Of a stretch of DNA of 33,070 nt, positions 1,729 to 2,804 are shown in pieces (the stretch's first letter is position 1; every line of letters starts with the position of its first letter). The stretch spans positions 1-33,070 of the forward strand of contig JAQGJY010000094.1 of assembly GCA_028290325.1 (NCBI GenBank), written 5' to 3'. The translations under genes were made by a program, and so were the position numbers. This stretch comes from Tardiphaga sp. (GTDB taxonomy: Bacteria > Pseudomonadota > Alphaproteobacteria > Rhizobiales > Xanthobacteraceae). A model generated the notes under the pieces. It saw nothing but the letters and a program-made list of their open reading frames with translations, searched no databases and had not been told where the DNA came from.

Positions 1729-2100
1729 TCAGGATGATGCGGGTGGCGCGCGCGCCTGCGCGTGCGAAGACTCGCGCGCGGCCATCGCGTCGGGACGGTA
1801 CGCCCGCCAGGCCACGCGATAGGCATGCCGTTCCGGAGTCGCGATCGCGGCGACGGGCGAACCGATCGGCGCGCCCGCATGGGTGACGCAGCACGCCGAA
1901 CAGGATCCGTCTCGCTTGTGGTGAACGGTGTTGCCCGGATCGGCGAGATCGGCCTTCTCGATGCTGGAGCAGATCGTGGCGGAATGCAGCGGATCGGACG
2001 CCGCGATACTCGCAGCCCAGCACGCACCGACCGGCGCAACGATCTGCACCAGGAGCGCGAGCAAAACGATCGGAAGCAATCGGCCCAACCGACGGCGCAT
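1729..2100 (-). CDS. DUF2946-like small secreted/membrane protein (123 aa)
   Basis: ORF MRRRLGRLLPIVLLALLVQIVAPVGACWAAS... has an N-terminal hydrophobic segment and a C-terminal CSACCVTHAG Cys/His motif. It lies directly upstream of the TonB receptor on the same strand, a typical DUF2946 context. Confidence 0.65.
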   Translation of the reverse strand: MRRRLGRLLPIVLLALLVQIVAPVGACWAASIAASDPLHSATICSSIEKADLADPGNTVHHKRDGSCSACCVTHAGAPIGSPVAAIATPERHAYRVAWRAYRPDAMAARESSHAQARAPPASS

Positions 2101-2424
2101 GATGCGGCCACCTTTCCTGCCGGCGAAATACCACGCGGCTCGAACCGAGTCGAGAACGGAGCACTCGGACGGAAATGCTCTAAATTAAGGCAGCGATCAT
2201 CGGCCTCCGCGCGCAGTTGAAAGAAGCGAAAGCCCAAATGCAATCATCACAACTGTTCCTGGCGCACGAACGATCGTTTCACGAGATGCTTGAATTTTAG
2301 ACGATCATTGCCAAAACAGATGACAAGATTGAAAAACTCGATTACCAAGGGTGCAACAGACAAACGCAAGGGCGTCTGGTGGTCCAAGTCTCGGGAGGAA
2401 CCCTGGCGCGCACAAGCGGCGTCA

Positions 2425-2462
2425 CCCCATCAAATCAAGAATAAATCTTATTGTTTTGGGGA
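2425..2462 (+). other. Candidate hairpin (CCCCA...TGGGG) upstream of the terminator at 2483-2512
   Basis: CCCCATCAAATCAAGAATAAATCTTATTGTTTTGGGG can form an imperfect stem (CCCCA/TGGGG plus AAGA/TCTT), by eye. Confidence 0.35.
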
Positions 2463-2482
2463 ATAGGGTCGACACAATGTTC

Positions 2483-2512
2483 CGAGCAGGGCGAGAGCCC
2501 TGCTCTTTTTTT
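2483..2512 (+). terminator. Strong intrinsic terminator on the plus strand
   Basis: GAGCAGGGC-GAGA-GCCCTGCTC followed by TTTTTTT. The T-tract is only on the plus-strand 3' side, so it does not serve the flanking minus-strand genes. Confidence 0.85.
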
Positions 2513-2528
2513 CGCGATATGGCAAAGT

Positions 2529-2804
2529 CTAGATCGGCAGTCCCATCAATTGCGACAGCCGCTCGATGTTGAAATAGCCGGCGCGAAACGCGCCGAACCC
2601 GGCGACGAAAATCACCAGCGAGATCAGAGTCGTCCACACCAATTTCGCGCGCATGCGAGAGACGATCGGCGCGCCGGGATCGGTGCCATCCGTCTGATCG
2701 CCGTCTTCATGCTGGCTCCGGACGCCGAACGGAAGCGTCACGAACAGCACGATCCACCACAACACAAAGTAGATCGCGAGCGCCGACGAGATCGTATAGG
2801 CCAT
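2529..2804 (-). CDS. DUF1467 family membrane protein
   Basis: 91 aa, MAYTISSALAIYFVLWWIVLFVTLPFGVRSQ...; two predicted TM segments. FVTLPFGVRSQ is characteristic of DUF1467 proteins found next to the epimerase in Rhizobiales. Confidence 0.85.
   Translation of the reverse strand: MAYTISSALAIYFVLWWIVLFVTLPFGVRSQHEDGDQTDGTDPGAPIVSRMRAKLVWTTLISLVIFVAGFGAFRAGYFNIERLSQLMGLPI

Follow-up and report, generated by a model that had tools for sequence, protein, structure and literature searches.

In the 33,070-nucleotide stretch of Tardiphaga sp. DNA analyzed here (contig JAQGJY010000094.1, positions 1 to 33,070, hereafter the window), the gap between two minus-strand genes harbors a conserved, free-standing small-RNA gene homologous to ar9, whose predicted transcript (2355-2512, plus strand, about 158 nt) would probably pair with and sponge a second small RNA, alpha-R8. 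The latter, which is called MmgR in Sinorhizobium and SisA-D in Caulobacter, is the partner of ar9 and not the same RNA. Support for the pairing comes mostly from its uniqueness within the genome, its conservation and a set of compensatory events seen in sequence comparisons, more than from covariation counts.

A conserved small-RNA gene between DUF2946 and DUF1467

An earlier note on this DNA had drawn attention to an AT-rich gap of about 430 bp between two minus-strand genes. The gap is real, measures 428 bp, and separates a DUF2946 gene (1729-2100, minus strand; name confirmed by Pfam) from a DUF1467 gene (2529-2804, minus strand; Pfam PF07330, E 3e-29), the convergent neighbor that marks the locus across the order and is followed by mce, rnj, birA and nuoN. 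Its GC content in 150-bp windows is 46-55%, as compared to values that are mostly 60-75% toward DUF2946 and 55-65% toward DUF1467, so the impression of an AT-richer gap was correct. Also present as described were a plus-strand intrinsic terminator (9-bp stem at 2484-2505, loop of 4, seven T; found on the plus strand only), a CCCCA...TGGGG hairpin (2425-2461) and, upstream of that hairpin, the segment GGGAGGAACCC (2393-2403).

We revised the extent of the element and the account of its promoter. The element had been placed at 2244-2513 and does end at the terminator, but the conserved position of the promoter puts the predicted transcript start near 2355, where the ar9 match described below also begins, and not at 2244. 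No convincing -35/-10 box had been recognized, and a sigma-70 consensus scan of the gap was likewise empty, failing to pick up the TACCAA box; conservation nevertheless points to a degenerate promoter at 2293-2348. Its predicted elements are a -35-like box ATGACA (2320-2325, plus strand), which is nearly invariant as RTGACA in relatives, and 17 nt away a -10-like box TACCAA (2343-2348, plus strand), which reads GGCTAC or TCTACC in relatives, where the spacing is fixed. Alignment shows the relatives' promoter to be well conserved (RTGACA, 16-17 nt, GGCTAC), and because the window carries a degenerate copy of it, no box stood out when the sequence was first read. TGAC also occurs upstream of ar9 outside the order. 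Further upstream, a conserved box (2293-2316, plus strand; AATTTTGAACAnnCnTTGCCGAAA in relatives) is kept in Tardiphaga, Bradyrhizobium and Rhodopseudomonas and may be a regulator-binding site; in Tardiphaga relatives it forms an imperfect dyad (CAATTTTGAAC...GCCGAAATTG), and the window's copy of both box and dyad is degenerate.

From 19 relatives we obtained a consensus fold in which hairpin 1 (CAGAC...GTCTG, 2357-2378) varies among G-U, A-U and G-C pairs in its stem, hairpin 2 (TGGCGCGC...GCGGCGTCA, 2404-2424) carries compensatory A-U, G-U and G-C changes as well as a C-G to U-A change, and the intrinsic terminator (2484-2512, stem plus U7) is kept with A-U to G-C double changes. These three elements thus show compensatory or wobble-preserving changes in fold and alignment. 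The CCCCA...TGGGG hairpin (hairpin 3) belongs to the window's own fold, being variable in relatives and absent from the consensus structure. Between hairpins 1 and 2 lies the putative alpha-R8 pairing site GGTGGTCCAAGTCTCGGGAGGAA (2378-2400), and between hairpin 3 and the terminator a mostly unpaired segment, AGGGTCGACACAA (2465-2477), is nearly invariant in Bradyrhizobium-group relatives; all of these features are on the plus strand. The predicted RNA folds better than 200 of 200 shuffles (z -2.35). The element is conserved, keeps its genomic position and promoter, has hairpins in which some changes are compensatory, ends in a terminator and shows no coding signal; all this supports the original suggestion of a plus-strand small RNA, and comparative sequence evidence supports a conserved gene for it in the 428-bp gap.

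Homology to ar9 and syntenic conservation

The element had at first been matched to no RNA family, and the Rfam/Infernal scan proposed as a check returned nothing at the gathering threshold. A permissive scan, however, revealed a full-length match of 2355-2511 to ar9 (RF02343, model positions 1-149 of 149) at 29.3 bits (E 0.0066), which is below the curated cut-off of 45 bits; with this sub-threshold match and its synteny to Sinorhizobium meliloti SmrC9/sra32/SmelC289, the statement that it matches no family no longer holds. Our own ar9 model (R2), which counts the window sequence among its building sequences, matches 2371-2512 at E 2e-37. RF02343 scores above its cut-off in 6 of 61 genomes of the order, the window's genome not among them, and the ar9 model had no match in 14 control genomes, Caulobacter vibrioides included. 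We discarded a second R2 match in one genome (G010, locus L285) as a merely terminator-like stretch, and likewise the weak Rfam matches to SNORD53, sbrA, BSnc120 and SBRMV1, which reflect chance or have the terminator alone in common.

The RNA stretch was found in all 17 other Tardiphaga genomes searched (77-87% identity, E down to 1e-42). A 19-base query taken from the conserved core recovered at least 118 named stretches possessing the ar9 core, among them Bradyrhizobium, Rhodopseudomonas, Nitrobacter, Afipia, Methyloceanibacter, Afifella and Microvirga; core conservation in these 118 was not used as evidence of constraint since that very motif had found them, the less biased searches being those by model and by synteny. 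Almost every locus with sufficient flanking sequence has the RNA convergent with DUF1467, beyond which come methylmalonyl-CoA epimerase, RNase J, BirA and NuoN (G155 was omitted from the synteny count because no DUF1467 neighbor was found). Where only the other side could be reached, as in most Bradyrhizobium loci, the DUF2946 gene lies upstream as in the window. Unlike the window, Bradyrhizobium and Rhodopseudomonas, the other Tardiphaga loci had no DUF2946 within about 1.5 kb. Two records with the ar9 core bear non-alphaproteobacterial names, one titled Frankia sp. RB7 (L162), which also has DUF2946 at the Bradyrhizobium spacing, and one titled uncultured Francisellaceae (L148); both are probably misnamed or contaminated.

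Connecting the window to ar9 proper is a locus (L038) with ar9 at 137 bits, which is flanked by DUF1467, mce and rnj in one direction and by proS (prolyl-tRNA synthetase) in the other. In S. meliloti, SmrC9/sra32/SmelC289 lies in an SMc01933/proS context (PMC2780559), and nearly all reported SmelC289 relatives adjoin the prolyl-tRNA synthetase gene (PMC3927594). The window has the DUF1467, mce, rnj, birA and nuoN side in common with the L038 type, and its upstream neighbor is DUF2946, not proS; the segment AAGTCTYGGGAGGA occurs in both the window RNA and the L038 ar9. Because the same gene order is found in a genome with an unmistakable ar9, we interpret the window RNA as a divergent, syntenic ar9 homologue, and because it scores below the Rfam threshold we do not call it a certified member.

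Predicted pairing with alpha-R8 encoded in trans

Genes for alpha-R8 adjoin the N-formylglutamate amidohydrolase (FGase) gene (PMC12559287), and we found alpha-R8 beside FGase in the window's genome and in each relative where FGase was located. The alpha-R8 core, UUUCCUCCCUAGACUUGGGCCGC, runs antisense to that of ar9, GGUGGUCCAAGUCUCGGGAGGAA, such that 22 of 23 positions pair with a single mismatch at C2392. The ar9 side of this duplex (2378-2400) is the most conserved part of the window RNA, being invariant or compensated across the order and the class, and it is unique in the genome: a search that allowed up to 3 mismatches to the 20-mer GGTCCAAGTCTNGGGAGGAA returned two sites only, ar9 itself (0 mismatches) and the antisense strand of alpha-R8 (1 mismatch, G-U in the RNA), with 0 occurrences for the reversed control pattern. 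The longest near-perfect pairing spans 23 positions, versus at most 20 in 1000 dinucleotide shuffles. In many genomes the next match of the ar9 covariance model is the antisense strand of alpha-R8. The two RNAs are encoded apart, ar9 on contig C172 and alpha-R8 on contig C24 of the same genome, and so would meet in trans.

Co-folding energy was rejected as proof of the pair, not being discriminating by itself and forming no main part of the evidence: the gain was equaled by 18 of 300 shuffled alpha-R8 sequences, 9 of 300 random window segments and 0 of 300 shuffled ar9 sequences. Single-molecule predictions do not show the GGGAGGA part of the site as strongly unpaired. Second alpha-R8 copies in Tardiphaga (L314, L317, L318) keep UUUCCUCCCUAG and are altered in the extension that pairs with ar9, and ar9 may, judging from these differences, discriminate between alpha-R8 siblings.

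Conservation and compensation of the predicted pairing

Of the 61 genomes of the order, 55 yielded an alpha-R8. Both RNAs were readable in 44 genomes, and the complementarity was found in all 44, at about 19-23 bp in 43 of them and at 15 in the remaining one (G043). GGGAGGA served to locate 40 of these 44 ar9 cores; the other four, taken from the model match alone, pair too, three of them via G-U changes inside GGGAGGA. Compensatory events include a G-C pair changed to A-U on both sides in G051, the same kind of replacement at a different position in G057, and the loss of one base in both RNAs at matching positions in the Rhizobiaceae-like G059. Outside the order, syntenic ar9 in four genomes (G100, G153, G069, G089) pairs with an independent alpha-R8 of the same genome, in G089 across 19 of 19 positions with two compensatory double changes. 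We excluded a fifth candidate, G159, since its 28-bp perfect match is trivial, the two RNAs being opposite strands of one locus.

Of the single changes in ungapped cores, 22 preserve the predicted pairing and 11 disrupt it, 5 of the latter falling in two genomes, G043 and G045. This count is moderate evidence, and transitions in any case tend toward G-U pairs. The position equivalent to 2392, opposite the U after UUUCCUCCC of alpha-R8, is C in 23, T in 11 and G in 2 of the ungapped Hyphomicrobiales cores and never A, and A does occur there outside the order (L293, L299, L301); we interpret it as a conserved mismatch inside the predicted duplex. In five loci (L012, L016, L018, L053, L263) the alpha-R8-complementary segment has tandem extra copies upstream of the core, with a unit of about 16 nt (e.g., CGGTCCAAGTCTTAAG) and five extra AAGTC in L018. 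A sponge might carry such repeated pairing segments, and these loci are possibly multivalent sponges.

Proposed function and competing readings

The model that we favor builds on Caulobacter crescentus, in which CrfA is a proven sponge that uses a G/A-rich loop to bind the UUUCCUCCCU core of SisA-D and lowers SisA about five-fold (PMC12559287). By analogy, the exposed GGUCCAAGUCUCGGGAGGAA segment of the ar9-type RNA would base-pair with the alpha-R8 core. The duplex would take in the first arm of the terminator hairpin as well as the CU-rich, anti-Shine-Dalgarno stretch that alpha-R8 presumably uses against the ribosome-binding sites of the mRNAs it silences. In so doing ar9 would keep alpha-R8 off its mRNAs, perhaps promoting its decay, and alpha-R8 targets would be relieved in the manner of CrfA. 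Within this model we infer transcription, pairing in the cell, the direction of control from ar9 onto alpha-R8, and any involvement of Hfq. In S. meliloti, the amount of polyhydroxybutyrate stored is held down by MmgR, which is itself responsive to nitrogen and carbon status (PMC7143759); ar9 would therefore presumably tune the carbon/nitrogen balance.

Should the pairing be real, control could also be reversed or mutual, with alpha-R8 setting ar9 abundance and ar9 acting on mRNAs via, for example, the 2465-2477 segment. That segment is the second nearly invariant, mostly unpaired part of the RNA, and over-expressed SisA lowers CrfA as well in Caulobacter (PMC12559287). We nonetheless consider this arrangement unlikely, as the alpha-R8 pairing site is the only part kept across the whole order and class, whereas the 2465-2477 segment is limited to the Bradyrhizobium group.

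Clearly less probable still is a conventional trans-acting small RNA that acts on mRNAs, or on the ribosome via GGGAGGA, with the alpha-R8 match being incidental or a relic of common origin. Both the resemblance of GGGAGGA to a ribosome-binding site and the unexceptional ar9:alpha-R8 co-folding energy would agree with such an RNA, but the complementarity, which has no second instance in the genome, extends 11-15 nt past GGGAGGA and has been maintained through compensatory changes.

We give almost no credence to a small-protein leader or ribosome-binding site. GGGAGGA would make a good Shine-Dalgarno sequence, but no start codon follows it at a conserved distance in any lineage examined, and frame-breaking indels lie downstream of it in relatives. 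The 73-aa ORF at 2351-2572, in which the earlier note had seen no known family, has no Pfam match, and its alignment contains indels that are not multiples of three, so we rejected a small protein at this locus. Equally remote is an orphan terminator left by a lost or moved gene and attached to no functional RNA, for which only the absence of a plus-strand protein gene speaks and which is excluded because promoter, body and terminator are kept together at a fixed position across the order.

Possible origin and significance

One locus outside the order (L298; G159:C188, about 1520-1640) carries an alpha-R8-like RNA and an ar9-type RNA on opposite strands beside DUF1467/mce, the alpha-R8-like RNA having its own terminator-like hairpin and T-run, and this arrangement may hint at how ar9 arose. 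The alpha-R8 model also weakly matches the antisense strand of ar9 loci in four genomes (G100, G069, G153, G155; E 0.002-0.3), part of these scores being due to the complementary core. We tentatively speculate, with the odds rather against it, that ar9 and alpha-R8 are an ancient sense/antisense pair of Alphaproteobacteria, in which ar9 began as a transcript antisense to an alpha-R8 copy at the DUF1467 locus and, once the sense copy had decayed, persisted as a dedicated alpha-R8 sponge.

That SmrC9/ar9 is expressed has been known since 2007, and the literature searched reports for it no function, target or partner, nor any ar9:alpha-R8 (ar9:MmgR) interaction; the RNA is of a known kind, but that literature apparently describes neither its predicted partner nor its predicted mechanism. 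Our analyses offer alpha-R8 as a specific partner candidate across Hyphomicrobiales and beyond, and extend the ar9 family to Bradyrhizobium and Rhodopseudomonas, which the Rfam cut-off had missed. They further suggest that Alphaproteobacteria in general, and not Caulobacter alone, place alpha-R8 under the control of a second RNA. Links of alpha-R8 are known to carbon storage (S. meliloti) and to starvation adaptation (Caulobacter).

Comparison with known systems

Compared with ar9, the window RNA has the same convergent arrangement with DUF1467, mce and rnj (proS lying beyond in a Rhizobiaceae-like genome) and the same predicted order of a 5' hairpin, a conserved AAGUCUYGGGAGGA middle segment, a second hairpin and a Rho-independent terminator. 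It is similar in length to S. meliloti SmrC9, which was mapped at 149 nt and detected by Northern blotting (PMC2780559), with a band of about 165 nt in another study (PMC2573895), versus the roughly 158 nt predicted here. It differs from the reported ar9 members, which are confined to Rhizobiaceae, Brucellaceae and Phyllobacteriaceae (PMC3927594), in that it scores 29.3 bits against a cut-off of 45 and belongs, together with its close relatives, to Nitrobacteraceae and other families. With CrfA it shares the design of a separate small RNA bearing a G/A-rich segment complementary to the alpha-R8 core, and where protection in CrfA spans 15 nt (G49-C63), the window RNA is predicted to form 22 of 23 pairs that reach into the alpha-R8 terminator arm.
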